Assembly (NCBI RefSeq): GCF_007992835.1 | Contig: NZ_BKBA01000003.1 | Span: forward strand, 806,001-870,000 | DNA length: 64,000 nt | Reading direction: 5' to 3' | Source of the DNA: Knoellia locipacati | GTDB lineage: Bacteria; Actinomycetota; Actinomycetes; Actinomycetales; Dermatophilaceae | Part shown: positions 8,910 through 48,265 of the stretch, in pieces | Layout: every line of letters starts with the position of its first letter | Position numbering within the stretch: the first letter of the stretch is position 1 | The notes under the pieces: model-generated | What the model saw: only the letters and a program-made list of their open reading frames with translations | Told to the model about the DNA's origin: nothing | The model's database searches: none | Program-made: the position numbers and the translations under genes

Positions 8910-8951
8910 GGAGCGGAATCGCAGCGGTTTCGCAGCGCCGACGAGCACCGT
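8910..8951 (+). promoter_or_regulatory. SARP-type direct repeats and -10, site A
   Basis: Three units with an 11-bp period, GGAGCGGAATC, GCAGCGGTTTC and GCAGCGCCGAC (8910-8942), then a hexamer CACCGT at 8946-8951 exactly 8 bp after the last GCAGCG. It is 46 bp before the CHAP-protein ATG. The same layout occurs at sites B, C and D. Known SARPs (ActII-ORF4, AfsR) bind heptamer repeats at 11-bp spacing with the last repeat 8 bp from the -10; assignment to the neighbouring SARP is inference. Confidence 0.75.
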
Positions 8952-8997
8952 GCCTGTCGTGGGCACCGCGCCCGCACCCACGACAGGGAGGGCTGAC

Positions 8998-9705
8998 ATG
9001 AAGGCACGCACCATCGCCGCACTCGCCGCCGCGGCCACGACCGCCGGGCTCGTCGCCGCGGTCCCCACCGCGCAGGCGCAGCAGAACGCCGCCGACGGCA
9101 CCGCGAGCACCACCGTCCAGGGCGCCGCCTCGGCCCTGTCGACGCTGCGGCAGGACACGGTCGACCGGGCGAACTCCCTGCTCGCCGCCGACCTGAAGTT
9201 CAAGGACGCTGCGGGCACGGTGCGCACGAGCACCCAGCCCAGCAGCAACCGCAACCTCCTGTCGTGGGGCGGCAGCAACACCAACAGCAACGTCCTCAAC
9301 GGCTACAACGGGCTCGACTGGTGCGGCTACTTCGTCGCGCGGACCTGGACGGGCGCCAACACCCCGGCACCCACGGCATACCCGCGGATCCCCACCTACT
9401 ACATGCGCTCCCAGGCGTGGCGCACGGAGTCCAGGACGCCCTACCACCGATTCTCGGTGAGCCTGCTGCCCAAGCCCGGCGACGTCCTCGTCTGGCAGAA
9501 CGGCGCGGGCACCGCTGGGGTCGACAACGGCACGGCCACGGGCCACGTCGGCGTCGTCACCGCCGTCAACACCACGACCAAGGTCGTCACGAGCGTCGAG
9601 GGCAACGTCGAGGGCGACGAGATCCGCCGCTACACCTACGCGTGGGACAGCGACGGCCCCACCAAGGACGGCAAGCACTTCATGGGACACACCTCGCGCG
9701 AGTGA
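8998..9705 (+). CDS. Secreted CHAP-like cell-wall amidase/endopeptidase
   Basis: A 235-aa exported protein. Residues 1-28 are a signal peptide (MKARTIAALAAAATTAGLVA..AQA, Ala-x-Ala site). Residues ~95-190 look like a CHAP domain: candidate nucleophile Cys in DWCGYFVARTW and catalytic His in GHVGVVTAVN. CHAP enzymes cut peptidoglycan peptides or amide bonds. ATG 8998 follows GGGAGGG at a normal distance and begins the signal peptide, so the longer frame from 8950 is rejected. The promoter has SARP repeats (site A). It is convergent, 10 bp apart, with the M15-like gene. Confidence 0.82.
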   Translation: MKARTIAALAAAATTAGLVAAVPTAQAQQNAADGTASTTVQGAASALSTLRQDTVDRANSLLAADLKFKDAAGTVRTSTQPSSNRNLLSWGGSNTNSNVLNGYNGLDWCGYFVARTWTGANTPAPTAYPRIPTYYMRSQAWRTESRTPYHRFSVSLLPKPGDVLVWQNGAGTAGVDNGTATGHVGVVTAVNTTTKVVTSVEGNVEGDEIRRYTYAWDSDGPTKDGKHFMGHTSRE

Positions 9706-9715
9706 GGCGGACGCG

Positions 9716-10597
9716 TCAGAGGGAGCGCTGGTACTGCTCCCACCACACGAGCGGGCGGTCGGCGCCGGCGGTCGAGTCGCTGCACGAGCCGCCCTCACCT
9801 CCGAAGCGGAACTGGTAGATCTGGCAGAGGCTGCGGTGCGAGCCGTAGGCCACCCACGGGTCGCCGACGGCGATCGCGTGGATGTGCTCGTTGCCGCTCC
9901 AGTTGCGGAACCAGGCCGCGAACCCGACCTTGCGCAGCGCCGCCAGCCGCGCGCTCGTCTGCGACGGTGCGTCATTGACCCGGATGTCGATGACCCCGCC
10001 ACCCATGTGGGTGCCCACGGACGCGTCCGCTCCGCCGCGCCCCTGGGTGATCGTCATGTTGCTGCTCAGCGCCTCGGCCCTGCGGAACATCGCCCTCGTC
10101 CGTTCGTTGACGGCCTCACCGTCCTCGGTGACCCACGAGCCCTGGTCGACCTCGTTCGAGAGGGTGAACCTGTTGGGGGCGAGCTTGCCGAGCTCGAACA
10201 GGCTCGGCAGCCCGTTGGTCGACCACGGGTTCGCCGTCGTGTGCACACTGTTCTCCCAGGCGCGCCAGGCGTCCATGGTGGCGCGGCCGAAGTGGCCGTC
10301 GGTGTCGCTCGACGCGAGCAGCCCCTTGGCCCGCAGCGCCGCCTTGACCGTCTTCACCGACGCCTCCGCGCCCGAGGTCAGCCCGCGGTCGGGCTTGCTC
10401 GGGTCGAGCTGGGCGGCGAGCAGGAGACGCTCGTGGTCGACGACCGGCAGCGCCGTGACCCCGGCGGCTGCACCGGCAGGCGCACCGGCGGGCGCACCAG
10501 CGGGTGCGCCGGCGGCAGGGCCGCCGGCCAGGCCGACGGACACCGCGGCGGCCACAGTGGCGACGGCCACGGCCGCGCCACGTCGAAGGGTGCTCAT
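9716..10597 (-). CDS. Secreted M15-like metallopeptidase
   Basis: A 293-aa exported protein. An Ala-rich signal peptide (residues 1-~30) runs into a GAPAGAPAGAPAG repeat linker; residues ~60-120 may be a peptidoglycan-binding-like helical region (KTVKAALRAKGLLASSDTDGHFGRATMDAW); residues ~190-250 hold THMGGGVIDIRV and NEHIHAIAV, which match the His/Asp and His ligands of M15 D,D-carboxypeptidases and endolysins. A role in peptidoglycan trimming is therefore likely. SARP repeats (site B) lie 50-95 bp upstream. ATG 10597 starts the signal peptide; the open frame upstream to 10735 reads through the promoter. Confidence 0.75.
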   Translation of the reverse strand: MSTLRRGAAVAVATVAAAVSVGLAGGPAAGAPAGAPAGAPAGAAAGVTALPVVDHERLLLAAQLDPSKPDRGLTSGAEASVKTVKAALRAKGLLASSDTDGHFGRATMDAWRAWENSVHTTANPWSTNGLPSLFELGKLAPNRFTLSNEVDQGSWVTEDGEAVNERTRAMFRRAEALSSNMTITQGRGGADASVGTHMGGGVIDIRVNDAPSQTSARLAALRKVGFAAWFRNWSGNEHIHAIAVGDPWVAYGSHRSLCQIYQFRFGGEGGSCSDSTAGADRPLVWWEQYQRSL

Positions 10598-10645
10598 GGG
10601 GGTTGTCCTCTCCCTGGGGGTGGGGCCGCATCGGCCTCTGGCCGG

Positions 10646-10691
10646 AGGCTTCCAACGCGTGCTGCGAACCCGCTGCGGATCGGCTGCGGTT
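10646..10691 (-). promoter_or_regulatory. SARP-type direct repeats and -10, site B
   Basis: Read on the minus strand, the units GCAGCCGATCC, GCAGCGGGTTC and GCAGCACGCG keep an 11-bp period (plus-strand GCTGCG at 10661, 10672 and 10683). AAGCCT (plus-strand 10646-10651) follows exactly 8 bp after the last hexamer GCAGCA. It drives toward the M15-like gene, ATG 49 bp further on. AAGCCT is shared with site C. Confidence 0.75.
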
Positions 10692-10706
10692 CGGCGCCCG
10701 TGGGCG

Positions 10707-13700
10707 TCAGGCGACGCCGGATCCCCCGCGGCCATCGTGCACGTCCCGTGGGGCGTACCCGCCCTGCGCCCTCACCTTCGCGTCGAGACGGGCGAGGATG
10801 CCGTCGAGCTCGGCGTTGTCGGTGAGCCCGGATCGCAGGAGGCAGTCGCGCTCGGACTCGAGCACCTCGATGGCCTCACCGAGCCGGCCCTGGAGCTGGA
10901 GCACCCGCCCGAGGTCTCGCAGGCTGGCCGCCCGGCTCAACGGTCGGTCGAGCCTCTCGAACCCGGCGATGCTGTCGCGCAGCACCGCCTCGCTCTCGAC
11001 GAGCCGGCCGAGGGCGGCGTGGGCCCGGCCGAGGGTGCGCTGCGCGCGGTGCAGCATGAAGTCGTCGTGACGGATCGCCGCCTGCTCGACGGCCTGGACG
11101 GCGCCCGGCAGCGCCTGCATCGGCTCGCCCATCTGCACGAGGATGTCGGCCCGGGTGTCGATGACCGCGGTGAGGCCGTTGACGTCGCCGAGCCGGGTGA
11201 AGAGGTCCATCGCCGCGTCGCAGAGCGGGAGGCCGGCGGCGTACTCGCCGAGCCGACGGTGGATGCGGGCGAGCGCGAAGAGCGCGGTGGCCGACCCCGA
11301 CCAGTCCTCCACCTCACCGAAGAGCCGCGTCGCCTCGAAGAGGTGCTCGCGCCCGGCCTCGAGGACGTCGTAGTCGTCGAGCAGGCTGCCCCAGGCGAGG
11401 GCGACGTAGGCGCGGACGACGCCGTCGAGGTCCTCGCCGCTGCTCCGGGTCGCCCACTCGAGCGCCTCCTCGGCGGCGGCCCGCTCGCCGTTGGCGCGGT
11501 GCGCCCGACCGAGCACCACCGCGGCGACGACCGCCCCGTCGACGTCACCGTCGAGGAGCATCGTGCGCCGGGCGTGGGTCGCGAGGGTGGCCGCGAGCCG
11601 TGAGTGGGCCGACTCGTGACGCAGGTGGGCCTCGACGAGGTCGAGGTGGGCCAGGCCCCGCCGGTCGTCGACGAGGTCGGCGTCGAGGTGCTCGCGGACC
11701 GTCTCGACGACGGCGAACCAGCGCTCGAGCTCGAGGCCGTTCTGGGCGTGCTGGCCGAGGACGACCATGAGGCGCCAGGCCGTCGCGGCGTCGGTGGCGG
11801 CCACCGCCCGTGCGCACAGCAGGAAGGTGTCCTGCTCGGTGCGGAGGAACGCGAGCGCCTCCTCGGGGTCGACCCGACCGCTCGAGCGCGGCAGGCGCCT
11901 GCCGTCGGGGCAGGGCGGGAGCGGGAGGAACTGCACGGGGTAGCCCTGCGCCTGCGGGAGCGCCGTGCGCAGCAGCGTCCTCGCGACGCGACCGACGTCG
12001 TCGGTGACGTCGGCCGGCGTCTCGGACTGCACGGCATACAGGCGGACGAGGTCGTGCAGGACGAACTGCGTCGAGAGGCCCTCGCGGGACTCCGTCTCGA
12101 GCAGGTATGCCGCGTGGAGCTCGTCGACGGCAGCGTCACCGTCGCGGGGGCTGCCCTCACCCGTGCCGTGGACGAGGGACGCGAGCAGCCAGCGGCTCGC
12201 GGCGCGGAACGGCAGCCCGGCGAAGCGCCCGAGCACCTCGCGCGCGGCGTCGCTCAGGGGCGCCTCGGCCAGGCCGAGACCGGCATAGATCGCCCGGTCC
12301 GACTGCTCGCCGTCGGACTGCCCACGGATCTCGCTGCTCAGCGACGACGCCGCCCGGCGCAGCGTGAGGTCGGGACGGGAGGCGACCCGCTGAGCCGTGA
12401 TGCGCAGCAGGAGCGGCAGGCCCAGGCACGCCTGCGCGAGCTGGCGCAGACCGTCGGCCTCACCCTCGACCCGGTCGTCGCCGACGAGACCGCCGAGCAG
12501 CTGGGCGCTCTCGCGGTCACCCAGTGCGGTGACGACGATTCGGAGGGTGGGCTCGCACTCGGTGAGCGGCAGCCGGCTCGTGAGGATCGCCGCCGACGGT
12601 GCGCGCGTGGGCAGGAGGTCGCGGACGTCGACCCCCGGGCCGATGTCGTCGAGGACGACGAGGAGGCGCTTGGTGTCGAGGATCGAGCGGTACATCGCCA
12701 CCCGGGCGTCGTGGCTCGTCGGCAGGACGTCGGCCGGCACACCGAGCAGCTGGAGGAAGTGGGCGAGGACGCTCGACACCCCGGCCCGGCCGGTCTCGCT
12801 GTCGAGGTGGAGATAGAGGGTGCCGTCGGGGAAGTCGTCGCGCAGCCGGTGGGCGGCCTCGACCGCGAGGGTCGTCTTGCCCATGCCGCCGAGCCCGGTG
12901 ACGGCGACGACGGGGGCGGTGCCGGTCGGTCGCGTGGCGGCGGCGACGAGGCGTTCGAGCTCGGACTCGCGCCCGACGAGGTGGGCCACGCTACGAGGAG
13001 CGGTGCGGGGGGCGGGGATCTGTCGCAGGGCCACCGGCGCGGACGAGGTCGCCGGGGCAGGGTCCGGTGAGGAGGTCGTGGGCGCGGCCGGGTCGGTGAC
13101 GCGCGCGGCGTCGTCGGTCGGTCCGGCGGGCGAGGTCGAGGGGGGGGACGACCTCGTGGGCGTGGAGGCGACCGGCTTGTCGAAGGTGAGGACCTCGTGG
13201 TGGGCGGCCGCGAGGATCGGGCCGGGTCGCACGCCGAGGTCCTCGTCGAGCCGGGTGTGGACGTCGCGGTAGACGCTCAGCGCCTCGGCCTGGCGGCCGA
13301 CCCGGACGAGGGCGCGCATGAGGAGCGCGTGCACCTGCTCGTGGAACGGGTGGCTCTCGCTGAGGTGAGCCAGTGCGCTGGCCACCCCGTCGAGGTGACC
13401 GGTCTCGAGGTCGGCCTCGATCCGCTGGAGGGTGACCTCGAGGCTCTCCTCGTCGATCCTGCGACGACGCGCCTCGACGTCGGGGCTGTCGGTGACCCCG
13501 CCGAGGGCGGCACCGAGGTTGAGCGACTCGGCCTCGTGGAGCAGGGCGTGCTTCTCGGCACTGGCCGGGTCGAGGCTGAGCGCGCGCCGCGTGAGGGAGG
13601 CGCGGTGACCGAGGTCGGTCCAGACGGCGTCGTCGAGGCGGTAGCCGGCCTCGTGGGTGACGATGAGCGGTGCCGGGACCACCTTGCGGCGCAGACCGGA

Positions 13701-13958
13701 CACGACCGCCTGCACCCGGTTGCGGGGCGAGGCGTGCGACCGGCCGCCCCAGATCCACTCGGCGAGGGCGTCGACCGTGACCACCCGGTGCTCCGCGACG
13801 GCCAGACCGGCGACGAGCGCGCGCTCCGACGGGGTGAGCGGGACGTCCTGCGTGCCCCGGACGAGGCGCACCATCCCGAGCACGCACGCACCCAGCTCGG
13901 GCCGCGAGCCCGTGTCGGGGCCGCGCTCCTGGATGTCCTGTGCCGGTGGTGTGACCAC
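10707..13958 (-). CDS. AfsR-type SARP regulator (wHTH-BTAD-NB-ARC-TPR)
   Basis: A 1083-aa transcription factor. Residues ~24-108 are an OmpR-like winged helix (VLGMVRLVRGTQDVPLTPSERALVAGLAV...), ~112-260 the bacterial transcriptional activation domain ending VRPGPILAAAHHEVL, ~330-640 an NB-ARC ATPase with Walker A GLGGMGKTT, Walker B LLVVLDD and GLPLLL, and ~700-1060 a TPR array. This is the AfsR layout. SARPs bind 11-bp-spaced direct repeats; four such sites are in the window, including one upstream of this gene (site C), so autoregulation and control of secreted proteins are likely. GTG 13958 is the first start before the wHTH. Confidence 0.9.
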   Translation of the reverse strand: MVTPPAQDIQERGPDTGSRPELGACVLGMVRLVRGTQDVPLTPSERALVAGLAVAEHRVVTVDALAEWIWGGRSHASPRNRVQAVVSGLRRKVVPAPLIVTHEAGYRLDDAVWTDLGHRASLTRRALSLDPASAEKHALLHEAESLNLGAALGGVTDSPDVEARRRRIDEESLEVTLQRIEADLETGHLDGVASALAHLSESHPFHEQVHALLMRALVRVGRQAEALSVYRDVHTRLDEDLGVRPGPILAAAHHEVLTFDKPVASTPTRSSPPSTSPAGPTDDAARVTDPAAPTTSSPDPAPATSSAPVALRQIPAPRTAPRSVAHLVGRESELERLVAAATRPTGTAPVVAVTGLGGMGKTTLAVEAAHRLRDDFPDGTLYLHLDSETGRAGVSSVLAHFLQLLGVPADVLPTSHDARVAMYRSILDTKRLLVVLDDIGPGVDVRDLLPTRAPSAAILTSRLPLTECEPTLRIVVTALGDRESAQLLGGLVGDDRVEGEADGLRQLAQACLGLPLLLRITAQRVASRPDLTLRRAASSLSSEIRGQSDGEQSDRAIYAGLGLAEAPLSDAAREVLGRFAGLPFRAASRWLLASLVHGTGEGSPRDGDAAVDELHAAYLLETESREGLSTQFVLHDLVRLYAVQSETPADVTDDVGRVARTLLRTALPQAQGYPVQFLPLPPCPDGRRLPRSSGRVDPEEALAFLRTEQDTFLLCARAVAATDAATAWRLMVVLGQHAQNGLELERWFAVVETVREHLDADLVDDRRGLAHLDLVEAHLRHESAHSRLAATLATHARRTMLLDGDVDGAVVAAVVLGRAHRANGERAAAEEALEWATRSSGEDLDGVVRAYVALAWGSLLDDYDVLEAGREHLFEATRLFGEVEDWSGSATALFALARIHRRLGEYAAGLPLCDAAMDLFTRLGDVNGLTAVIDTRADILVQMGEPMQALPGAVQAVEQAAIRHDDFMLHRAQRTLGRAHAALGRLVESEAVLRDSIAGFERLDRPLSRAASLRDLGRVLQLQGRLGEAIEVLESERDCLLRSGLTDNAELDGILARLDAKVRAQGGYAPRDVHDGRGGSGVA

Positions 13959-14128
13959 ACCGCGAGGCTATCCATGGAGGGCATGGCTGTCATCAGGAGG
14001 AGCCGGGGAGGCCTCCCCCTGTGGGGGGTGTCGGCCCTGACCCGTGAGGGCCAGGCGTCAGGACGTCGTCGCCGCGGTGGTCACCACCTTCTCGTCGGAC
14101 CGGTCCCAGCGGCCGGTGCTCTCCACTC

Positions 14129-14172
14129 AGGCTTCCCGGCCGCGCTGCGAAGTCGCTGCGGTTTCGCTGCGG
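14129..14172 (-). promoter_or_regulatory. SARP-type direct repeats and -10, site C
   Basis: On the minus strand GCAGCGAAACC, GCAGCGACTTC and GCAGCGCGGCC lie in tandem (plus-strand GCTGCG at 14144, 14155, 14166), then 8 bp, then AAGCCT (14129-14134). It points to the SARP gene with a leader of about 165 nt. That leader contains two possible hairpins: a 6-bp stem GGCCCT/AGGGCC at 14034-14053, and the palindrome GGGGAGGCCTCCCC at 14006-14019. Autoregulation through a structured leader is inference. Confidence 0.7.
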
Positions 14173-14205
14173 CGCCCCCGCCAGACCGCCACCGCCACAA
14201 CCCGC

Positions 14206-14253
14206 TTGCGAAACGAAACCGTTTCGTTCTATCGTTTGGAACGACATCGTTCC
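14206..14253 (+). promoter_or_regulatory. TetR promoter with two palindromic operators
   Basis: A promoter TTGCGA (14206-14211), 18-bp spacer, TATCGT (14230-14235) precedes the TetR-MFS operon. The spacer is filled by AACGAAAC-C-GTTTCGTT (14212-14228); a second palindrome GGAACGA-CA-TCGTTCC (14238-14253) covers the expected transcription start. Both are suited to repression by the adjacent TetR protein. Confidence 0.75.
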
Positions 14254-14279
14254 ATCACCGCCGGAGGTCGACCCACCAC

Positions 14280-14900
14280 ATGACGCCCGAGACCCATCCC
14301 CGCCCCCGCGTCGAGGGCGAGCGCGAGCAGGAGATCCTGCACGCGACGCTCGACGTCCTCGCCGAGGTGGGCTACGACAGGTTGACCATGGACGCGGTCG
14401 CTGCCGCGGCCAAGGCGTCCAAGGCCACGCTCTACCGGCGGTGGAGCAGCAAGTCCGCACTCGTCATCGACGCCGTGCTCGCCCAGAAGGGCCCGACGAC
14501 GGCGCCCGACACGGGCAGCCTGCGCGAGGACCTGCTGCAGATGCACTGCGGGGCCGGTGGCGTGACCGATGAGCGCGCGATGAGCGTGCTCGCCTCGGTC
14601 ATCACCGCGGTCAACATCGACCCCGAGTTCGCCACCGCGTTCCGGCGCGACTTCATCGGCCCCAAGGTCGCAGCCGGCCGTGCCGTCTTCGAGCGGGCCC
14701 GCGAGCGCGGCGAGATCGGCGACGACGTCGACCTCGACCTCATCGCCCCCGCCCTGGCCGGGATGGTGCTGCACCGCACCCACCTGCTCGGCGAACCCCC
14801 CAGCAAGGCGACCATCGCCGCGCTCATCGACCAGGTCGTCCTCCCGGCCTGTCACGCCACCCACACGTCAGCCCAGCCCCAGGACAAGGACCACGCATGA
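14280..14900 (+). CDS. TetR/AcrR family repressor
   Basis: A 206-aa TetR protein: the N-terminal helix-turn-helix covers residues ~17-62 (REQEILHATLDVLAEVGYDRLTMDAVAAAAKASKATLYRRWSSK, read in parts), and the C-terminal helical domain is the TetR_C type (LAGMVLHRTHLLGEPP). ATG 14280 follows GGAGG at 14263-14267. The gene overlaps the MFS gene by ATGA and carries two palindromes in its own promoter, so it most likely represses itself and the pump; the inducer is unknown. Confidence 0.9.
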   Translation: MTPETHPRPRVEGEREQEILHATLDVLAEVGYDRLTMDAVAAAAKASKATLYRRWSSKSALVIDAVLAQKGPTTAPDTGSLREDLLQMHCGAGGVTDERAMSVLASVITAVNIDPEFATAFRRDFIGPKVAAGRAVFERARERGEIGDDVDLDLIAPALAGMVLHRTHLLGEPPSKATIAALIDQVVLPACHATHTSAQPQDKDHA

Positions 14901-16504
14901 CCGACGTACGACCCCTCGACGAACCCGCGGCAGACGTCGCGAAGCCACCACGCGAGCTCAACCTCACCTGGGCACTCGTGCTCATCTCGATCGCCCAGCT
15001 CATGATCGTCCTCGACGGGACCATCGCCAACATCGCCCTGCCCTACATCCAGCACGACCTCGAGATCAGCCAGGCCAACCTCACGTGGGTCGTCACCGGC
15101 TACGCGCTGGCGTTCGGCAGCCTGCTGCTCCTCGGTGGCCGCCTCGGTGACCTCTACGGTCGTCGCCGGGTCTTCATGGTCGGGCTCGTCGTGTTCGGCG
15201 TCGCCTCGCTGCTCGGCGGGTTCGCGACGAGCGAGCCGCTGCTCCTCGCCTCCCGTGGCCTGCAGGGTCTGGGTGCCGCCCTCGCGTCACCGGCCGCCCT
15301 CGCGCTCATCACGACGACCTTCCCGGCCGGGCCGGCGCGCAACCGTGCCTTCGCCGTGTATGCCGCGATGTCGGGTGCCGGCGCAGCCGTCGGCCTCATC
15401 CTCGGGGGCTGGCTCACCGGCACCTCCCCCGAGATCCTCGGCACCGCGATCGACGGATGGCGCCTCACCTTCCTCATCAACTTCCCGATCGGGCTCGCCG
15501 CGGCGTTCCTCGCCCCGCGCTTCCTCAACGAGTCCGAGTCCCACCCCGGTGAGCTCGACCTGCCGGGCGCCCTCACCGGCACCCTTGGCCTGCTCGGTGT
15601 CGTCTACGGCCTCTCCCGCGCCGGCACCGAGGGGTGGACCGACGGCCTGACCCTCGCCAGCCTCGCCGCCGGCGTCGCGATGCTCGTCGTCTTCGGGCTC
15701 ATCGAGCGACGGGTCGCGCACCCGCTGCTGCCCTTCCGGATCTTCACCAGCCGGACCCGGGCCGCGAGCTTCGTGGCGATGTTCTTCGCCCCGGCCGCGA
15801 TGTTCGCGATGTTCTACTTCCTCAGCCAGTACATCCAGAACGTCATGGGCTACAGCCCGCTCAAGGCCGGTGTCGCCTTCCTGCCGTTCACCGTCGGCAT
15901 CGTCGTCGGCGCCGGGCTCGCGTCGAACCTGCTCAACCGGGTCAACCCGCGCTTCATCTCCGGCACGGGCACGCTCATCGCGGCGGGCGCGCTCTACGGC
16001 TTCTCGACGCTGCCCTACGACACGACGTTCCCGGTCCAGGCCGTGACGGGCACCTACGTCGCCGACATCCTGCCGTTCGTCGTCATGATGGCCTTCGGCA
16101 TGGGGCTCACCTTCGTCCCGGTCACCCTGACCGCCGTGCACCACCTCCGCCCCGAGGAGTCGGGCATCGGCTCCGGCGTCCTCAACACGGCGCAGCAGGT
16201 CGGTGGCGCGCTCGGTCTCGCCGTGCTGGCGACGGTGGCGACCCAGACCTTCACCGACCGTGGCGCGGAGCTGGCCAGTGCCGGCGCGGCGGCCGCGGCG
16301 GCCGGTGGGCCCACGCCCTCACCCGAGCAGGTGCAGGCGATGGAGGCGGTCGCCCGCCTCCAGGTCTTCACCGAGGGCTCGACGCAGGCCTTCCTCGTCG
16401 GCTCGCTCCTCATGCTCGCGGCCTCCGCGGTCATCTGGATCTTCCTCGGCGTCAAGCACGAGGAGCTGGCCACCGACGGCCCGGAGCCCGTGCACATGGG
16501 CTGA
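14897..16504 (+). CDS. DHA2 (14-TMS) MFS drug-efflux permease
   Basis: A 535-aa inner-membrane H+ antiporter of the EmrB/QacA type. The first helices carry LDGTIANIALPYI (motif D1 type) and the loop 2-3 motif A GRLGDLYGRRRVF; motif C appears around GAGAAVGLILGGWL. Fourteen hydrophobic segments can be counted. Likely to export a toxic organic compound that also releases the co-transcribed TetR. The start overlaps the TetR stop. Confidence 0.9.
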   Translation: MTDVRPLDEPAADVAKPPRELNLTWALVLISIAQLMIVLDGTIANIALPYIQHDLEISQANLTWVVTGYALAFGSLLLLGGRLGDLYGRRRVFMVGLVVFGVASLLGGFATSEPLLLASRGLQGLGAALASPAALALITTTFPAGPARNRAFAVYAAMSGAGAAVGLILGGWLTGTSPEILGTAIDGWRLTFLINFPIGLAAAFLAPRFLNESESHPGELDLPGALTGTLGLLGVVYGLSRAGTEGWTDGLTLASLAAGVAMLVVFGLIERRVAHPLLPFRIFTSRTRAASFVAMFFAPAAMFAMFYFLSQYIQNVMGYSPLKAGVAFLPFTVGIVVGAGLASNLLNRVNPRFISGTGTLIAAGALYGFSTLPYDTTFPVQAVTGTYVADILPFVVMMAFGMGLTFVPVTLTAVHHLRPEESGIGSGVLNTAQQVGGALGLAVLATVATQTFTDRGAELASAGAAAAAAGGPTPSPEQVQAMEAVARLQVFTEGSTQAFLVGSLLMLAASAVIWIFLGVKHEELATDGPEPVHMG

Positions 16505-16522
16505 GCGTCCGGCACGACCACG

Positions 16523-16554
16523 GGGCGGGGCTGCGCATCACGCGCACCCCGCCC
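16523..16554. terminator. GC-rich hairpin between convergent genes
   Basis: GGGCGGGG (16523-16530) pairs with CCCCGCCC (16547-16554), with an inner TGCG/CGCA extension. It lies 19 bp after the MFS stop and 29 bp from the TfoX-like stop, so it can end both transcripts; no T-tract is present. Confidence 0.6.
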
Positions 16555-16582
16555 TCTGGCGTCTCCGGGGAGCCTTGAGCGG

Positions 16583-16942
16583 CTACGTCTTCGGTGTGCG
16601 CCCCTTGCGGACCTTGGGCGGCAGGGTCGCGATGTGCGCGCGGGCCCGCTCGAACCAGTCGGCGGCGTCGGCGTCGGACATGTCGGCGGGCAGCGACAGC
16701 CAGCCGTTCATCGGGCGCTCCGCCGGTCCGAAGGGACCGCTGCCGGGCAGGGCACGCAGCTCCACGAGCCCCTCCTCGTCGAGCTTGACCCCGAGCGACT
16801 CGGCGAACAGGCCGGCGAACATGTTGCCACCCACGAAGGCTCCCACCGAACCGAACATCGGCCTGACCTCGACGTCGGGCGCGTCGGGCACGAGGGTGCG
16901 GAAGTGCGCCTTCGCCTCGTCGGTGTGCTTCGGCATCTGCAT
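16583..16942 (-). CDS. TfoX N-terminal domain protein
   Basis: A 119-aa protein consisting of a single TfoX-N domain (RPMFGSVGAFVGGNMFAGLFAESLGVKLDE and PMNGWLSLPADM). TfoX in gammaproteobacteria promotes competence, but stand-alone TfoX-N proteins in actinobacteria have no established role. It is the last gene of a five-gene minus-strand run, 16 bp after its neighbour. The ATG at 16942 is chosen; an ATG two codons later is possible. Confidence 0.8.
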   Translation of the reverse strand: MQMPKHTDEAKAHFRTLVPDAPDVEVRPMFGSVGAFVGGNMFAGLFAESLGVKLDEEGLVELRALPGSGPFGPAERPMNGWLSLPADMSDADAADWFERARAHIATLPPKVRKGRTPKT

Positions 16943-16958
16943 GACGGACCGTCCCGGC

Positions 16959-40952: not shown

Positions 40953-41991
40953 CCGCCACCACCTCGACGAGCGAGGCCGCCCGTGAGGCTGCGCCGTCGC
41001 AGCCCCACGTCGACCAGCCGTGCCCGCCGTGGTTGCGTGCCTGCTGCACGAGCTCGCCCCAGGGCGCCCCCTCGACCCGGTCCCGCTGGACGACCTGGGC
41101 GATCCCCGAGCGTGCGAGGACGGCACCCATGTGGTGCTGCTCCTCGAAGGGACGGCTCTGCGGGAGGACGACGGCCGGGAGCCCCCAGCCGGCGACGTCG
41201 GCGATGGCGTTCTGTCCCGCGTGCGTCACGACGACGTCCGAGCTCGCGAGATGGCCCTGGACGTCGGGCACCCAGGCCCGTCCTCCGACGACGGTCCAGT
41301 CGATGTCGGGCACGGCAGCGGTGATGAGGCCGGCCAGGCCGGGGTCGTCGAAGCCGTCGGAGCCGGCGAGCACAAGTCCTCGCGGGCGGCCGGTCGGGGT
41401 GGCCGTCGACACCGACGACCCGGTGTCGGGCCGTCGCGCGATCCCACCGACGGCGACCACGCGCGGGTCCGGTCCGGTCGTCCAGGTCGAGTCCCGGGAC
41501 GTGTGCCAGATGTCGTCGGTGGCCCACGCGGGCCAGGGCGCGAGGACCGCGGTGGCGGCGTCGTATGCCGCGGCGTGGGCCGAGTCGGTGCGTTCTCCGG
41601 GTTGCGCGACGACGACCACGGGGACGCCGAGCAGCCGCACCATGACCGCCACCTCGCAGGAGACGTCGACCACGACCACGTCGGGCTCCTCGACCTGGAC
41701 CCATCGGGCAATGGTCGTCATCCGCTCGCGGAATCCGCTGTGCCACAGGGGAGCCCAGTGCATCGACCCGTGCACCGTGACGTCCGCCGAGCTTTCGGAG
41801 ACCGGCTGCGGCAGCGGGGCGTCCAGCGCGAGCCGGACCGACGTCACGGGTCCTGGCCGGGCCGCATCCCCCTCGAGAGCCGACCCGAGCAGCGTGACGT
41901 CGGCGCCTCGGCCCATGAGCTCGCGCCCCACGACCGTCGCACGGGTGCGGTGACCTGCGCCGTGGTGGTGGACGTACCAACCGACCTTCAT
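40945..41991 (-). CDS. GT-B glycosyltransferase (UGT/GT28-like)
   Basis: A 348-aa transferase with two Rossmann-like halves: YVHHHGAGHRTRATVVGRELMGRGADVTLLG at the N-terminus (GxGHxxR as in MurG/UGT-like enzymes) and SSDVVVTHAGQNAIADVAGWGLPAVVLPQSRPFEEQ (in parts) forming the donor site. Member of a block of four glycosyltransferases; the product is unknown. Confidence 0.82.
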   Translation of the reverse strand: MKVGWYVHHHGAGHRTRATVVGRELMGRGADVTLLGSALEGDAARPGPVTSVRLALDAPLPQPVSESSADVTVHGSMHWAPLWHSGFRERMTTIARWVQVEEPDVVVVDVSCEVAVMVRLLGVPVVVVAQPGERTDSAHAAAYDAATAVLAPWPAWATDDIWHTSRDSTWTTGPDPRVVAVGGIARRPDTGSSVSTATPTGRPRGLVLAGSDGFDDPGLAGLITAAVPDIDWTVVGGRAWVPDVQGHLASSDVVVTHAGQNAIADVAGWGLPAVVLPQSRPFEEQHHMGAVLARSGIAQVVQRDRVEGAPWGELVQQARNHGGHGWSTWGCDGAASRAASLVEVVAGV

Positions 41992-43073
41992 GTCAGGGCC
42001 CCCTGCCGGATGACGAGGTCGCGGTAGACCCCGACGTAGTCCTCGACCATGCGGTCCGAGCCCAGTGCGGCACGAGCCGCGGCATGGACCTGCGCCCGTG
42101 GCAACGCGGCCGCCACGGGCACCGCGTCCGCGAGCGCTCCGACGACCGCCTCGTCGTCACCCTCCGGGCCCACGAGCACGCCGATGTCGGGCGTGACGAA
42201 CTCGCCGAGGCCACCCCGGTCGAGCGCGACCACGGGGGTGCCCCACATGGCCGACTCCGCCGCGACGAGGCCGAACGGCTCGTCCCACCTCGGGGTGACC
42301 AGCGTGACGGCGCTCTCGCGCACGAGGTCGGCGAGCTCGGCGTGGGAGAGGTGCCCGACGTGCTCGACGTCGCGTCCCAGCTCGGGGGCGACGACGTCGT
42401 CGAACCAGGCGGGGTCGCTCACCGGCCCGGCGAGGCGCAGCGGGAGGCCGGCGCGCCGGGCAGTGCGGATCGCGAGGTCGGCACCCTTCTCCGGAGTGAG
42501 GCGGCCCGTCCACACGAGGGAGCGACCACCGGGGCCGGGGCCGCGCCCGTCGTCGTCTACACCGTTGTGGATGATCCTGGGCGCCTTCGGGAGCGAGGTC
42601 CACAGACCCGCGTTCGCCCGCGAGACGCAGACATAGCTCGACCCGGGACCGGCCAGGGCCACCCCCACCTCCATCCACGGGAAGGGCGGCGTGTGCAGCG
42701 TCGTCACGACCGGCACCGTCAGTGCCGCGCTGAACGCGAGCGGGAGGAAGTGCAGGCTCTGGTTGTGGACGACGTCGACATCCCCGCGGGTGAGCAGGTC
42801 GGCGACGGCGCCCGTGAATGCCGCGTGGTCCCTGAGGAAGTCCGGCTCGGGCAGCTGGTGGTCCATCGCCGCGACCTCGCTGAGTGCGGGGAGGTCGACG
42901 TAGGGCACGAGCTCGTCGCACAGCTCCGGGTCGGTCCCGGCCCGCGCATAGAGACGGACGTGGTGACCGAGGCGACGGAGCCCACGCGCGAGCATGGCGG
43001 TGTGCGACTCCTGACCCCCGGCATACGGCTCGACGATCGGGTTGCGCGAGGTCGCGAGCATGGCGATGCGCAT
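41988..43073 (-). CDS. Family 4 glycosyltransferase
   Basis: A 361-aa GT-B enzyme: EPYAGGQESHTAMLARGLRRLGHHV is the typical Gly-rich start, LVWTGRLTPEKGADLAIRTARRAGLPLRLAG the inter-domain region and PRWDEPFGLVAAESAMWGTPVVAL the retaining EPFGLxxxEA-like motif (here EPFGLVAAESAM). Likely uses an activated sugar to extend a glycan or glycolipid. Shares one base with the preceding GT2 stop. Confidence 0.88.
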   Translation of the reverse strand: MRIAMLATSRNPIVEPYAGGQESHTAMLARGLRRLGHHVRLYARAGTDPELCDELVPYVDLPALSEVAAMDHQLPEPDFLRDHAAFTGAVADLLTRGDVDVVHNQSLHFLPLAFSAALTVPVVTTLHTPPFPWMEVGVALAGPGSSYVCVSRANAGLWTSLPKAPRIIHNGVDDDGRGPGPGGRSLVWTGRLTPEKGADLAIRTARRAGLPLRLAGPVSDPAWFDDVVAPELGRDVEHVGHLSHAELADLVRESAVTLVTPRWDEPFGLVAAESAMWGTPVVALDRGGLGEFVTPDIGVLVGPEGDDEAVVGALADAVPVAAALPRAQVHAAARAALGSDRMVEDYVGVYRDLVIRQGALT

Positions 43074-43771
43074 CAGCCCACCTCGTCGGCGAGGGTCGCG
43101 AGGAAGCCCGCGAAGCCGCCCGGGGTGCGGCCCTGGCCACGGGCCGAGCTGCCCACCCGGGTCGAGTCCGTGGCGACCCAGCGTGTGGTGTGGGCACGGA
43201 TCCGGCGGACGAGGTCGACGTCCTCGTGCAGGGCCGTGGCCCTGAAGCCGCCCACGGCGAGGTAGGTGCTGGCGCGGAACCCGAGGTTGGCGCCGTGAAC
43301 GTGCGCATGCCCCTCGGCCAGCTCGTGGCGCTCACGCCAGGCCTCGAGGAGGGCGGTGTCGGCGAGCCCGATCGGCTCGACGGTGCCGATGACGAGGTCG
43401 CGCGTCGTGGCCAGACCGACCTGCGCGACCAGCCAGTGGGGTGGGACGACGGAGTCGGCGTCCGTGCAGGCGACCCAGAGGTCGTCGGCGGCGACGCCGG
43501 ACTCGGCAGCGGCGTCGACGGCCCGGCTCACCCCGGCGTGCCGGGCGGCTCCGACCAGACCGTGGTCGACGACGAGGCTGCCGATCCTGGCGGCCTCGAC
43601 GACGTCGGCCGAGCCGTCGGCGCAGCCGTCGAGGACGACGGTGACGTCGATGAGCAGGTCGGGGCGGCAGGCCCGCAGCACCCGTCGCGCACGGTCCACG
43701 CTGAGCAGGCACCTCGGCAGCAGCGCCTCCTCGTCGCGGGCGGGGATGACGACATGGACCGCGCGGATCAC
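43073..43771 (-). CDS. Family 2 glycosyltransferase
   Basis: A 232-aa GT-A enzyme: VHVVIPARDEEALLPRCLLSVDRA start, VVLDGCADGSADVVEAA, the metal-binding CTDADSVVPPHWL, and GANLGFRASTYLAVGGF plus HEDVDLVRRIRA near the end. Resembles short GT2 proteins found beside PIG-L deacetylases. GTG 43771 overlaps the PIG-L gene by 4 bp. Confidence 0.87.
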   Translation of the reverse strand: MIRAVHVVIPARDEEALLPRCLLSVDRARRVLRACRPDLLIDVTVVLDGCADGSADVVEAARIGSLVVDHGLVGAARHAGVSRAVDAAAESGVAADDLWVACTDADSVVPPHWLVAQVGLATTRDLVIGTVEPIGLADTALLEAWRERHELAEGHAHVHGANLGFRASTYLAVGGFRATALHEDVDLVRRIRAHTTRWVATDSTRVGSSARGQGRTPGGFAGFLATLADEVG

Positions 43772-45126
43772 GTCGCCACCTCGTAGCAGTCGAGGAGCAC
43801 GTCTGGCTCGACATGGGTCACGGTGGCCTGCTCGTGGCAGACCGAGCGGACCAGGGCGTGGACGGCCGGTCCGTCGAGCGGGATGTGCTCGGTGGGGTGG
43901 CGCCAGTCGACGAGCACCAGCTCGCCCCCCGGGGCGAGCCGTGCGAGCACCGCGGCCAGCGTGAGCCACAGCTCGAACGGTGTGAGGAAGTAGCCCACCT
44001 CCGACAGGACGACGAGGTCGAAGGGGCCCTCGAGGCCCTCCACGACACCCGGGGCCCGGCCACGGACCCAGTCGACGGTCGTCGGGCCGTCACGCCGGGC
44101 GACCTCCAGCGCCTGCGCGCTCACGTCGGCACCGACGACGTGGTCGGCGCGCTCGGCCAGCGACCGGGTGAGGACGCCGGTCGAGCACCCGAGGTCCAGG
44201 ACCCGGGCGTAGCGCTCGCGCCGGAGCAGGGCGAGGGTGAGGGCGCGCTTGCGGCGTTCGTACCAGCTCGCGCTCGACCACGGGTCGTCACCGTCGGCGA
44301 ACATCGCGTCGAAGGAGGCCTCCCGGCGCTCGTCGTCGCCACGCGCAGCGGGAAGGACCGTGCCCTCGGCGAGGACCAGGGTCGTGAACCCCCGTCGTGC
44401 GGGCGCGAGCACTCCGTCGGTGAGCATGAGCTCGTCCCCGGGGGCGGACGAGAGCGGCGCGACCTGGGTGCGGTGCTCGCCGAGGGCCTCGGCCGCGCGG
44501 TTCATGGCGGTCAGTGAGACGTCGAGGACGACGGCACGGTCCCACGGCAGGTCGTCGGGTTCGCTCCAGTGCCACAGCCAGACGAGGTAGTGCGCCAGCC
44601 CGGCCGAGGCGACGGCCTGCACCGCCTCGGCTGACGCGCGACCGGCGGCGTCGTGGTCGGGGTGGCCGTCGGCGCTCCACGGTGCGAGGACGAGGGTTCG
44701 CGGCCCTAGGAGGGCGCGCACGTGCTCGACCACCAGGTCGTGGCGGGCGGCGAGTCCGCCGTCGGGCAGTCCCGCGTGGACCACCCGCGCCGCGGGGGCG
44801 AGCACCGCGACGGCCCGGTCGGCCTCGAGGGCGCGGCGTTCCCGCATCCGCGCGGGCGCCACCGTCGGCGACCCCGGGTGCGAGCTCTCGCCGTCGGTGA
44901 GGACGAGCACGACCACCTCGACGCCCCGGTCACAGGCGTCGGCGATGAGCCCGCCGGCCCCGAGGCACTCGTCGTCGGGGTGGGCGGCGACGACGAGCAG
45001 GCGGTCGTATGCCGTGCGCACGGTCTCGATGTCGGTCCGCGTCACCGCGGACCACCGTGGGTCCCTCACCCACCGGCGTTCACCGTCCGGGTGGTCGAGC
45101 CGGGGTGCCGACGCGCCGGCGTTCAC
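43768..45126 (-). CDS. Fused PIG-L deacetylase and SAM-dependent methyltransferase
   Basis: A 452-aa bifunctional protein. Residues ~38-245 are a PIG-L/LmbE domain with zinc ligands in VVAAHPDDECLGAGG and DGHPDHDAAG; residues ~275-450 are a class I methyltransferase of the NodS-like type with SAM loop VLDLGCSTGVLT and GADVSAQAL. PIG-L enzymes remove N-acetyl groups from sugars (GlcNAc-PI, GlcNAc-inositol), and NodS N-methylates a deacetylated sugar amine. The fusion therefore suggests deacetylation followed by methylation of one sugar (inference). Confidence 0.88.
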   Translation of the reverse strand: MNAGASAPRLDHPDGERRWVRDPRWSAVTRTDIETVRTAYDRLLVVAAHPDDECLGAGGLIADACDRGVEVVVLVLTDGESSHPGSPTVAPARMRERRALEADRAVAVLAPAARVVHAGLPDGGLAARHDLVVEHVRALLGPRTLVLAPWSADGHPDHDAAGRASAEAVQAVASAGLAHYLVWLWHWSEPDDLPWDRAVVLDVSLTAMNRAAEALGEHRTQVAPLSSAPGDELMLTDGVLAPARRGFTTLVLAEGTVLPAARGDDERREASFDAMFADGDDPWSSASWYERRKRALTLALLRRERYARVLDLGCSTGVLTRSLAERADHVVGADVSAQALEVARRDGPTTVDWVRGRAPGVVEGLEGPFDLVVLSEVGYFLTPFELWLTLAAVLARLAPGGELVLVDWRHPTEHIPLDGPAVHALVRSVCHEQATVTHVEPDVLLDCYEVAT

Positions 45127-46226
45127 CGTTGCTCCCTGACGCGCTGGGCGCCGATCCGGGCGAGGTCGCGCTCCCCGTGGTGCTGCCGGACGTAGACCGT
45201 GAGGTCGGCGACCCGACGGGCGTGCTCCTCGTCGGAGGTGAGGGGACCGGGCCCGAGGGCACGACCCGTCTCGGCGAGGACGAGCTCGGCCGTCGCTGCG
45301 GACGTCGCCCGCACCCTGGCGGCAAGCAGCTCACCCACGGATCCACGGGCCTCCCCGGCGTCGATCCGTTCGGCGGCGTCCCGCAGCGAGAGCAGCGTGG
45401 TGTGCAGGGCCGTGTCGAGGCGGCCGAGGTGAGTCAGGGCCAGCTGGTCCGGGTCGCGCCTGTGGGCGCTGTCGAGCACCGACTGCGCCAGGGCGCAGGC
45501 GGCCCCGAACCACACGGCGGCGACACCGATGCCGCCCCAGGCGAACCCGGGACGCTCGAGGTACCACTGCGGTGGCCCGACCGGCGTGGCCGGGACGTCG
45601 GTCAGCGTGATCGACGTGCTCCGGACGTGGGCGAGCCCTCTCGCCACCCACGGGTCCTCGCTGACCCGCACGCCGGCGTGCCCCAGGTCGACCGCGAAGG
45701 CCTGTCGCCGGTGCTCGTCCACGTGGGCGGTGATGACGGCGTGGCTGACCCGGTCGGCGAGCGAGCACCACGGCTTGCTCCCGGTGAGTGCCCACTCACC
45801 CCCGCACGCGACGGCCTGCAGGTGCTGCCCGGGGGCGTGGGCGGCATAGACGCCCCAGGTGCTGCCACGCGTGGGGACCGGGCTCGGCCAGCTGTCGTCC
45901 GTGGCGCGGTCGTGCTGCGCCGCCTGGTCGAGGATGGCCAAGGCGTCGAGGTGGGGCTCGACGACCCGCGCGACGGTGAGGTCGCCCGCGCCGAGCGAGG
46001 CGAGGGTCCGCACCCAGGACCAGGTCGCCCCGCCGAGGGCGCCGGCGACCGGGCTCAGCGACCGGGCGACCTCGAGGGCGGCGTCGAGGTCGGTGCCGAC
46101 CGACCGCGCCAGGGCCACCAGCGTCGGATCGGACCACCCGAGGAAGCCCGAGGGCTCCTGGGGCTCCACCGGTGCGCTCTGCCTGGGCTCGTTGGGGAAC
46201 TCCGCCACGACGCCCCCCTCAGCCAT
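45123..46226 (-). CDS. Acyl-CoA dehydrogenase-like flavoprotein
   Basis: A 367-aa protein of the acyl-CoA dehydrogenase fold: ACGGEWALTGSKPWCSLADRVSHAVITAH corresponds to the middle beta-domain FAD region, and the C-terminal helices end RQHHGERDLARIG as in the family. The usual YEGT-type catalytic loop is not visible, so activity on normal acyl-CoA is doubtful. It overlaps the PIG-L gene by 4 bp and the upstream gene by 8 bp; in this setting it may act on a carrier-bound or lipid acyl chain. Confidence 0.75.
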   Translation of the reverse strand: MAEGGVVAEFPNEPRQSAPVEPQEPSGFLGWSDPTLVALARSVGTDLDAALEVARSLSPVAGALGGATWSWVRTLASLGAGDLTVARVVEPHLDALAILDQAAQHDRATDDSWPSPVPTRGSTWGVYAAHAPGQHLQAVACGGEWALTGSKPWCSLADRVSHAVITAHVDEHRRQAFAVDLGHAGVRVSEDPWVARGLAHVRSTSITLTDVPATPVGPPQWYLERPGFAWGGIGVAAVWFGAACALAQSVLDSAHRRDPDQLALTHLGRLDTALHTTLLSLRDAAERIDAGEARGSVGELLAARVRATSAATAELVLAETGRALGPGPLTSDEEHARRVADLTVYVRQHHGERDLARIGAQRVREQR

Positions 46227-46647
46227 TCGTCGGCGACGTCGTGCCCGCGGCTGATCCGCCGGTGAGGTCGGTGAGGACGTCGCGCAGCAGGTCGGGTCGG
46301 ACGACGGTGAGGGTGGCCCCGGGGTGCTTGATGGTGCGCGTGGGGTCGATGCCGGGGACCGGGTCGCGGAACGTCACGCACAGGGCCCGGTCACCGTTGG
46401 TCGCGAACGTCACCCCGCGGTCGGTCAGGGACAGGTGGGGTGGCCCGGCGGTCTTGATCCAGGCGAAGCCACCGCTCTCCTCGCACCCCGTGATGTTCTC
46501 GAGCGCGGTCGTGAGGCGCCACGGACCGAACCGGACCCGGAGCTCGTCGTCGCCGACGTCGACCCAGGCGGTCTCGGGCCGGATCCCGAAGAGCATCGCG
46601 GGAAGCCGGTATGCCGGCGCGAACGCGAAGTCGAAGCGGCGTCTCAT
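46219..46647 (-). CDS. Conserved hypothetical protein
   Basis: A 142-aa soluble protein: FDFAFAPAYRLPAMLFGIRPETAWVDVGDDELRVRFGPWRLTTALENI (in parts) followed by mostly beta-strand sequence, perhaps a PH-like barrel. I recognise it only as a recurring actinobacterial hypothetical protein. It lies inside the nine-gene operon, overlapping both neighbours by 4 and 8 bp. Confidence 0.7.
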   Translation of the reverse strand: MRRRFDFAFAPAYRLPAMLFGIRPETAWVDVGDDELRVRFGPWRLTTALENITGCEESGGFAWIKTAGPPHLSLTDRGVTFATNGDRALCVTFRDPVPGIDPTRTIKHPGATLTVVRPDLLRDVLTDLTGGSAAGTTSPTNG

Positions 46648-47186
46648 CGGCGCCGCAGCAGGGACATCGGGCGGTCGAGCAGCCCGGCCGGGCCGCGCTG
46701 CTGCTCACCGAGGTAGGCATCGAGAACGAGCAGCCCAGCCGTCGTGGCGGGTGTCGCCCACTGCAGCCACCGCATGCGCTGGACCAGCGCGTCCTTGCGG
46801 GCCGAGGCAGCCGGGTCCTTCGCGGCCGCCTCCTGGGCCTGTCCCAGTCGGGCGCCGTTGAGGTAGGCCGCGGCGCTGGCCGCGAGCGCGGCGCCGGTCA
46901 GCGCGGTCTTGAGGACCACGGCGGCCGTGGTCGGTGGGTGGGCCAGGGTGCGGCGACGGTTGTCGGCGACGATGGCGAGCCCGCTGAGGACGTGCAGCCC
47001 GATGGCCCCACCCTGCACGGGCCCCCAGGCCGTCCAGCCACGGTCGGAGATCTGCGCCCTCTCCCTGTCGTCGTCGCCCTCTCGGGCCGCGGGGTTGAGC
47101 CCCACCGCACCCATGAGGGAGCCACCGAACCACGCAGCGTTGGTGACGAGGTGGGTCGCCCGGACGGCAGTGCTGAAGACGGTCAT
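46644..47186 (-). CDS. Four-helix membrane protein, first gene of the glycosyltransferase operon
   Basis: A 180-aa protein with about four hydrophobic segments (ATHLVTNAAWFGGSLMGAVGL, GGAIGLHVLSGLAIV, TAAVVLKTALTGAALAASAAAYL, WATPATTAGLLVLDAYL). No family named with confidence. TAGCGT (minus strand, 47194-47199) is 7 bp before ATG 47186 and is the best promoter for the whole operon 47186-39388. Confidence 0.72.
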   Translation of the reverse strand: MTVFSTAVRATHLVTNAAWFGGSLMGAVGLNPAAREGDDDRERAQISDRGWTAWGPVQGGAIGLHVLSGLAIVADNRRRTLAHPPTTAAVVLKTALTGAALAASAAAYLNGARLGQAQEAAAKDPAASARKDALVQRMRWLQWATPATTAGLLVLDAYLGEQQRGPAGLLDRPMSLLRRR

Positions 47187-47259
47187 GCCTGTGACGCTAT
47201 GGACGAACCGGCGCCACCGGCTCACCCCAATGGGCGGAAGGCCCGGACGGCCGGTGTCG

Positions 47260-48195
47260 TCAGGTCCGCGGCGAGCGCCCGGGGGTGGTCGCGTCGTCGA
47301 GGTCGAACAACCGCCGTGCGTTCTCACGCAGCACGTTGCGCGACCACTGCTCCCCCAGGCCGAGGTCGAGCACCGAGTCGACGGCCTCGAGGTAGGGATA
47401 GGGGATGTTGGGGAAGTCGCTGCCGAAGAGGACGCGCTCCCCCATCTCGCCGAGCAGGTCGCGCAGCTCGGCCGGGAACGGGTGCATCGCCTCGGTGAAC
47501 CGCGTGAACACCATGGTCGTGTCGAGGTGGACCCGCGGGTGCGCCACGCACAGCTCGAGGAACTCGCGGTACTCCGGCATCCCCGCGTGTGCGACGACGA
47601 GCGTGAGCCCCGGGAAGCGACGCAGGAGCACCCGGACCCCGTCGACGCCGGTGTGCTCGCCGGGTGCCGGGCCGTTGCCGGCGTGGATGACGACCGGCGT
47701 CCCGCTGCGTTCGAGGGCGGTCCACACGTCGTCGAGGAGCGGGTCGTTCGGGTCGAAGGCGCCCACCTGCACGTGCACCTTGAACACCCGGGCGCCGGAC
47801 GAGATCGCCTCTCGCACATAGGCGCCCGCGCCGGGCTCGGGGAAGAACGTCGCCGACCTCAGGCAGTCGGGGTGGGTGTCGGCGAATGCCCCGGCCCACC
47901 CGTTGAGCCACTGCGCCATGCCAGGCCGGTGCGGATAGCTCAGCGCCGTGAACGCCTCGACCCCGAACGCCCGCAGCGTCGCGACCCGCTCGTCGTCGCC
48001 GGTCCGGTAGGCGATCGGCCACGGGCGGCCGAACGCCTCCTCCGCACGGTCGAAGTACGCCCAGACCTTGTCGAGCACCCGGGCCGGCATGAAGTGGGTG
48101 TGGACGTCGACCATCCCGGGCAGCCCGAGGGCGTCGAGCCGGGAGCGCACCAGCGCGGCCTCGTGGGCGGGCAGCAGGACGGGGGCGGACGGCAT
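47260..48195 (-). CDS. Amidohydrolase family protein (amidohydrolase 2)
   Basis: A 311-aa TIM-barrel metalloenzyme: MVDVHTHFMPARVLDKVW carries the HxH metal site, VVIHAG and LVVAHAGMPEY further histidines, and VLFGSDFPNIPYP the catalytic Asp. The amidohydrolase 2 group includes decarboxylases such as ACMSD-like enzymes. Substrate unknown; no kyn pathway partner is adjacent. ATG 48195 is inside a GGCATAC word. Divergent from the small secreted protein gene. Confidence 0.85.
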   Translation of the reverse strand: MPSAPVLLPAHEAALVRSRLDALGLPGMVDVHTHFMPARVLDKVWAYFDRAEEAFGRPWPIAYRTGDDERVATLRAFGVEAFTALSYPHRPGMAQWLNGWAGAFADTHPDCLRSATFFPEPGAGAYVREAISSGARVFKVHVQVGAFDPNDPLLDDVWTALERSGTPVVIHAGNGPAPGEHTGVDGVRVLLRRFPGLTLVVAHAGMPEYREFLELCVAHPRVHLDTTMVFTRFTEAMHPFPAELRDLLGEMGERVLFGSDFPNIPYPYLEAVDSVLDLGLGEQWSRNVLRENARRLFDLDDATTPGRSPRT

Positions 48196-48222
48196 ACCGG
48201 CATCGTCCCCGAGCCCCGCGGC

Positions 48223-48265
48223 CGCAGCGAAATCGCAGCCGATCCGCAGCGCGCCCCGGCACCGT
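48223..48265 (+). promoter_or_regulatory. SARP-type direct repeats and -10, site D
   Basis: CGCAGCGAAAT, CGCAGCCGATC and CGCAGCGCGCC (48223-48255) keep an 11-bp period; CACCGT at 48260-48265 is exactly 8 bp after the last GCAGCG, as in site A. The match to site A continues downstream (GCACCGT, then GTCG). It is 35 bp before the ATG of the small secreted protein and about 35 kb from the SARP gene. Confidence 0.75.

Follow-up and report, generated by a model that had tools for sequence, protein, structure and literature searches.

The locus described here raises the question of which genes are controlled by a large regulator of the Streptomyces antibiotic regulatory protein (SARP) family that is encoded among genes for secreted proteins. 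It lies in a 64,000-nucleotide stretch of Knoellia locipacati DNA, called the window below, where four promoter-like sites built of GCAGCG-type repeats accompany the gene of the AfsR-type regulator P0003 and those of the window proteins P0002, P0004 and P0005. On the evidence assembled here, P0003, a SARP of a distinct subfamily, very probably activates a dispersed regulon of exported proteins through triple repeats that end 8 bp from the -10 element. What the sequences themselves establish is the presence and spacing of the sites, the target genes that they precede and their association with the regulator subfamily.

Triple-repeat sites and their proposed regulator

Each of the four sites in the window (Table 1) comprised three 6-bp units with an 11-bp period and, exactly 8 bp past the third unit, a -10 hexamer. 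All four had been proposed in an earlier sequence-only reading of this DNA and were present with that spacing, CACCGT and AAGCCT each occurring twice in the -10 place; the starts given at 8910, 10646 and 14129 were correct, and the fourth, placed at 48223, begins at 48224. The units varied somewhat, with GGAGCG as the first unit of site 1, GCAGCC as the middle unit of site 4, and GCAGCC, GCAGCG and GCAGCA in site 2. When the window was scanned with one mismatch allowed, only these four places were returned, and 100 dinucleotide shuffles gave a mean of 0.00 and a maximum of 0.

Table 1. Positions of the features discussed; plain numbers refer to the window.
Feature	Location	Strand	Remarks
SARP-type promoter site 1	8910..8951	+	units at 8910, 8921, 8932; -10 CACCGT at 8946-8951
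Secreted CHAP-domain protein P0002, 235 aa	8998..9705	+	PF05257, E 9.8e-10
Secreted M15-like protein P0004, 293 aa	9716..10597	-	H-x6-D and HxH residues; weak peptidoglycan-binding match
SARP-type promoter site 2	10646..10687	-	-10 AAGCCT at 10646-10651
AfsR-type large SARP P0003, 1083 aa	10707..13958	-	winged helix, BTAD, NB-ARC, TPR
SARP-type promoter site 3	14129..14170	-	-10 AAGCCT at 14129-14134; upstream of regulator gene
SARP-type promoter site 4	48224..48265	+	-10 CACCGT at 48260-48265
Small secreted Cys-containing protein P0005, 160 aa	48300..48782	+	downstream of site 4
Three-hairpin element	L185-L191, match from 1501 each; e.g. L189:1459-1628		after SARP-type promoter, before fgd
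Orphan SARP-type sites, window's own genome and K. flava	L041:5031-5125, L163:8429-8520		same conserved flanks, different adjacent genes

The strict pattern also recurred in the rest of the window's own Knoellia genome (G000; 3.59 Mb, 72% G+C). In the genome as a whole, three units plus the -10, with one mismatch, were found at 8 places, compared with 1 in the reversed control. A refined pattern, in which strict units were combined with the -10 and with a C ahead of each of units 2 and 3, gave 9 sites with at most 1 mismatch, five of them outside the window, and none in the reversed control. Seven of these nine lie upstream of genes for secreted proteins, one upstream of the regulator and one upstream of no secreted open reading frame (ORF), so that matches to the strict form are not scattered at random inside genes across the genome. 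With two mismatches allowed and no -10 required, the pattern was not enriched (66 places versus 171 in the reversed control), and the signal is thus confined to the strict form. As the refined pattern was built from G000 sites, the remaining 148 family genomes served as an independent test.

The distance to the -10 was assessed on 31 sites picked by scans that did not require a -10; two overlapping registers and the places in genomes lacking a P0003 ortholog (8 + 8 in the two scans) had been removed beforehand, and the four sites of Knoellia flava (G065) were retained. The hexamer NANNNT stood at spacing 8 in 28 of the 31 sites (25/27 without K. flava), versus only 0-2 of 31 at each other spacing from 2 to 16. 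CACCGT, GACGGT and CAGGCT were the most frequent hexamers, with three occurrences each. In G121, another Knoellia, a CHAP gene is preceded by the counterpart of site 1, which likewise has GGAGCG as its first unit and CACCGT as its hexamer.

The gene at 10707-13958 had been taken for an AfsR-type regulator, and the domain content of P0003 agrees. Its N-terminus matched the OmpR-type winged helix (Trans_reg_C, 31.6 bits; cut-off 26.2), followed by BTAD (101.9 bits; cut-off 22.1), and its C-terminal half matched NB-ARC/NOD (44.6 bits; cut-off 23.5) and TPR_12 (57.4 bits; cut-off 30.1). The nearest solved structures were those of AfsR (8k60, 8jke and 8hvr) and then EmbR (2fez); the best PDB match was AfsR, at E 1.3e-55, with residues 299-1005 aligned to 8k60. 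Judged by these predicted domains, winged helix with BTAD as well as NB-ARC/TPR, and by the repeat geometry, P0003 is a SARP. It is not an AfsR equivalog by NCBIfam NF053617 (289.6 bits versus a cut-off of 1430).

We searched 149 genomes of the family with residues 1-262 of P0003. Orthologs were recognized in 15 genomes of five genera at 112 bits or more; the next match, in G021, scored 98.8 bits and all others 85.1 or less. The recognition helix of P0003 (PRNRVQAVVSGLRRK, residues 78-92) was compared among these 15 orthologs and 15 other loci returned by the same search. The form RNR(V/I)Q(A/S)(L/V)VS(G/A)(L/I/V)RRK was present in all 15 orthologs and in 0/15 of the other SARP loci, G021 included.

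Sites with at most one mismatch occurred at 46 places in 18 of the 149 genomes, whereas the reversed pattern gave 10 places. Ortholog-bearing genomes accounted for 40 of these 46 sites. A site was present in 14/15 genomes with the ortholog versus 4/134 without it (Fisher p 2.7e-15, a value that ignores kinship and counts G000). The sites therefore follow the orthologs of this regulator in five genera, the conservation in related genomes that had been named as a check on the SARP regulon. Across the order, 4 of 396 genomes had a perfect match, all of them within the family (0/362 beyond it), and the reversed control gave a single place in all 396.

A separate collection of named genomes contained no relative of P0003 in a protein search. 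A stricter exact-match scan of the same collection returned eight places, five of them in Knoellia, Phycicoccus (3) and Flexivirga. The other three were in Azohydromonas and Streptomyces, both without a fitting gene, and in Saccharothrix, where the match (L171:1813-1854) stands 69 nt ahead of a gene for a reductase-like protein and may reflect chance or another SARP.

Target genes and the proposed regulon

We examined the ORFs following the 40 sites in the 14 ortholog-bearing genomes that contain them. By a crude Sec/Tat-signal heuristic of our own, 28 of the 40 were followed by a secreted ORF 46-168 nt from the site start, compared with 122/2000 (6.1%) positions drawn at random from the window and the other stretches retrieved, not from whole genomes. 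A 29th secreted target was assigned by hand in G121: a Tat-type nuclease-like protein (L147:12844-13737, minus strand) that matches the endonuclease/exonuclease/phosphatase family below cut-off and precedes the SARP gene, an arrangement that suggests an operon. The remaining 11 sites lie before the SARP gene itself (1, in G000), a Phycicoccus hairpin element and then fgd (6), Knoellia orphan positions (2), or other sequence (2). No recognisable biosynthetic gene was found among the ORFs identified after the 40 sites; clusters farther away were not looked for.

The target families were CHAP, M23, M23 with RTX repeats, GH43, and GH25 with I36. Further targets were an NlpC/P60-like protein (below cut-off), a protein combining I36 with a weak match to VanY, and a paralog of the M15-like P0004 whose matches to peptidoglycan-binding profiles stayed under the cut-off. 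Several more are small secreted proteins that matched no family. The exported-protein regulon suspected from the window is supported and reaches far beyond it, with M23, GH25, GH43, NlpC-like and nuclease-like members added. Two of these proteins join a peptidase-inhibitor I36 domain to another part behind the same promoter type, in one case a GH25 muramidase (L045:1669-2697) and in the other a weakly VanY-like part (L067:1607-2461).

Within the window, the CHAP protein, the small Cys-containing secreted protein and the regulator stood as predicted targets as first described, and the fourth is M15-like in its motif residues. CHAP relatives (E<=1e-10) were found in 5/149 family genomes, all five of which have the SARP ortholog and an upstream site. 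In P0004, H197, D204, H238 and H240 are invariant across 4 sequences; no peptidase profile in Pfam, NCBIfam or PDB matched, and a PG_binding_1 match (E 0.039) was under cut-off. P0005 belongs to no Pfam or NCBIfam family. Single-sequence AlphaFold2 models of P0004 and P0005 were poor (predicted local distance difference test scores 36.9 and 43.1) and were set aside. A TetR/MFS gene pair at 14280-16504 was also rejected as a target, as nearby site 3 faces the opposite way; a palindrome-like stretch in front of the pair (14205-14265; GAAACGAAACCGTTTCGTTC, GGAACGACATCGTTCC) is, by eye, a likely TetR operator.

Recurrence before secreted genes, co-occurrence with the ortholog, the 8-bp spacing and the distinct recognition helix together support a SARP regulon, and the correlation of ortholog and site argues that P0003 is the protein that binds the repeats. 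With AfsR as the model for direct binding, RNA polymerase recruitment and ATP control, SARP protomers would occupy three TCGCAGCG-type repeats that follow each other head to tail at intervals of one helical turn and stop 8 bp before the -10 of weak housekeeping-type promoters. The bound SARP would form a bridge to sigma and to RNA polymerase across the weak promoter, and the NB-ARC/TPR half would gate activation with ATP plus a further signal. The regulon would comprise dispersed exported proteins and, in this Knoellia, probably the SARP's own gene, site 3 making autoregulation possible.

Several observations weigh against this interpretation. One ortholog-bearing genome, G123, has no site within 1 mismatch, and K. 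flava, G034, G113 and G118 have a pattern match without the ortholog; the matches in the last three look like chance. Two of the 40 sites lack a sensible downstream ORF and eight precede hairpins rather than a secreted gene. The crudeness of the secretion heuristic and the narrow pool of random positions count on the same side. The G121 equivalent of site 2 reads TCTGCT at the -10, with no A at position 2, and in that genome the nuclease-like gene separates the SARP-type site from the SARP gene; in view of these two differences, the form of direct autoregulation is not conserved. Finally, any role for the regulon is read from target content and patchy distribution only.

Since the targets would cut glycan, peptide and amide bonds and include nuclease-like and inhibitor domains, and since only 15 of 149 genomes carry the ortholog, we propose, as the likeliest role, an accessory set of exo-enzymes that attacks the peptidoglycan and debris of other bacteria, in bacteriolysis or scavenging. 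We hold this proposal with no more than middling confidence. The main rival is that the regulon acts on the producer's own wall, in cell separation, autolysis or exit from dormancy. Peptidoglycan hydrolases are commonly self-directed, and EmbR, a mycobacterial protein with the SARP fold, is linked to genes for the cell's own wall. The patchy ortholog and the loss or lack of the whole block in K. flava mark the regulator as dispensable, however, and the nuclease-like protein, GH43 and I36-inhibitor domains fit exo-digestion better, so that we regard remodelling of the producer's own wall as possible but somewhat doubtful.

We consider it improbable that another SARP, or an unrelated activator, binds the repeats and that P0003 is merely encoded nearby. 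Further SARPs do occur in these genomes, and K. flava retains sites without an ortholog. Nevertheless, site presence follows this one ortholog group through five genera, the members of the group share a recognition helix of their own, and one site fronts the regulator gene itself. The K. flava sites, moreover, look like leftovers. This genome aligns to the window up to 8910 and resumes at 16610, and the block of CHAP, M15-like, SARP, TetR and MFS genes is absent from that place, with no relative of P0003 (E<=1e-20) or of the CHAP protein (E<=1e-10) elsewhere in the genome. The sequence between the aligned parts contains a good site and also a degraded repeat, which is located some 40 bp beyond the point where the alignment stops at site 1. 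The counterpart of P0005 (84% identical over residues 30-156) has kept its site and an intact reading frame, and its ordinary start codon is missing. This pattern, a single case, fits targets stranded without their activator; alternatively, the block may have been gained in other lineages.

That base composition (72% G+C) by itself produces the repeats can hardly be credited: GCAGC is frequent in G+C-rich coding DNA and the loose pattern is outnumbered by its reversed control (66 versus 171), yet the strict pattern exceeds its control (46 versus 10) and is concentrated in ortholog genomes (40/46), the spacing and target class are non-random, and window shuffles give no match. A promoter for an extracytoplasmic function sigma factor was set aside, as three phased repeats are, on general knowledge, a poor fit.

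Hairpin elements and orphan sites

Six Phycicoccus genomes carry, directly after the site, three stable hairpins whose loops contain G runs; fgd comes next, with a promoter of its own that looks leaderless (CAGGAT-N6-ATG in 7/7 Phycicoccus). An RNA model, R1, was trained on these six sequences with the Phycicoccus genome G120 left out, and its search of the 149 genomes returned seven places, namely the training six and G120, which bears the ortholog. The element was thus present in 7/7 ortholog-bearing Phycicoccus genomes sampled and in 0/2 Phycicoccus without the ortholog. The repeat directly upstream of the element in G120 has three departures from the refined pattern and ends in GACAGT; its weight-matrix score was 24.3, the next best in that locus being 7.6. 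The fgd copy of G120 encodes an F420-dependent glucose-6-phosphate dehydrogenase (NCBIfam, 554.4 bits; cut-off 420).

Across the seven sequences, 98.4% of cells pair. In an alignment that had been fitted to the structure, 13 cells were changed on both sides versus 3.7 in shuffled versions (0/500 as high), pairs with double-sided change numbered 6 versus 3.2 (15/500 as high), and covariation was 0.205 versus 0.089 shuffled and at most 0.054 in slid versions. The G-U pairs lie on the strand that could be transcribed from the SARP-type promoter. No Rfam family matched at E<=0.1 in 9 loci scanned, 4 of them from Phycicoccus. We considered the element as a sponge for 6C RNA, which matched in 9/9 Phycicoccus genomes tested (6 over the Rfam cut-off), and rejected this since the perfect pairing of 8-10 nt was equalled in length by 63-171 of 200 shuffles.

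At the orphan sites of G000 and K. flava, a strong hairpin of about 16 bp, differing in sequence between the two, comes next, and no secreted ORF follows; an ATPase ORF (G000) or a membrane-protein ORF (K. flava) begins about 180-200 nt downstream, and the hairpins may be leaders of these genes. The K. flava orphan has ATGCTC in the -10 place, which is not NANNNT, and an orphan site in G121, at a different location, leads into a long inverted repeat. In Knoellia genomes R1 gave weak matches only and none at E<=0.001, which gives no ground for treating the Knoellia hairpins as homologs of the Phycicoccus element. That the SARP drives a small non-coding RNA beside the exo-enzymes, perhaps acting through its G-rich loops, is a candidate role on which we are evenly divided.

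Comparison with known SARP systems

SARPs are best known for switching on antibiotic clusters. If the proposed regulon is real, the role of the SARP family would widen from these to exported wall-cutting enzymes. The recognition helix and its DNA motif form a pair that is ready material for asking how SARPs choose DNA, the regulon would tie small secreted proteins of unknown family to lytic enzymes, and the Phycicoccus hairpin element, if transcribed, would be a SARP-controlled RNA. No SARP regulon of wall hydrolases appeared among the matches listed in open-licence PMC, as judged by titles and the beginnings of abstracts.

EmbR of Mycobacterium tuberculosis has a C-terminal FHA domain according to PMC10936776, and P0003 lacks one (no match at E<=0.001). 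The two proteins have the SARP fold in common (2fez, E 5.3e-18). The known wall target of EmbR, embCAB, serves synthesis and does not encode exported hydrolases. The cluster-situated SARPs ActII-ORF4, RedD and PimR drive antibiotic clusters. Their direct-repeat sites have 11- or 22-bp phasing, but among the ORFs identified after the 40 P0003-linked sites there is no recognisable biosynthetic gene.

The closest parallel is AfsR of Streptomyces coelicolor, which has the same domain order of winged helix, BTAD, NB-ARC/NOD and TPR. In PMC10936776, SARP sites are described as direct repeats spaced by 11 or 22 bp, the final one lying 8 bp from the -10, and afsS as having a suboptimal -10, CACTGT, with 11-bp direct repeats ending 8 bp ahead of it; the present sites share this geometry with the afs box. 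The same paper names T88 and R92 of AfsR as residues that contact bases, and these align with the variable A/S and G/A positions of the P0003 ortholog group. AfsR also touches primary metabolism and development beyond antibiotic clusters, according to PMC10972967. The afs box has two repeats, whereas the P0003-linked sites have three repeats of another sequence, and the targets linked to P0003, unlike those of AfsR, are secreted enzymes.

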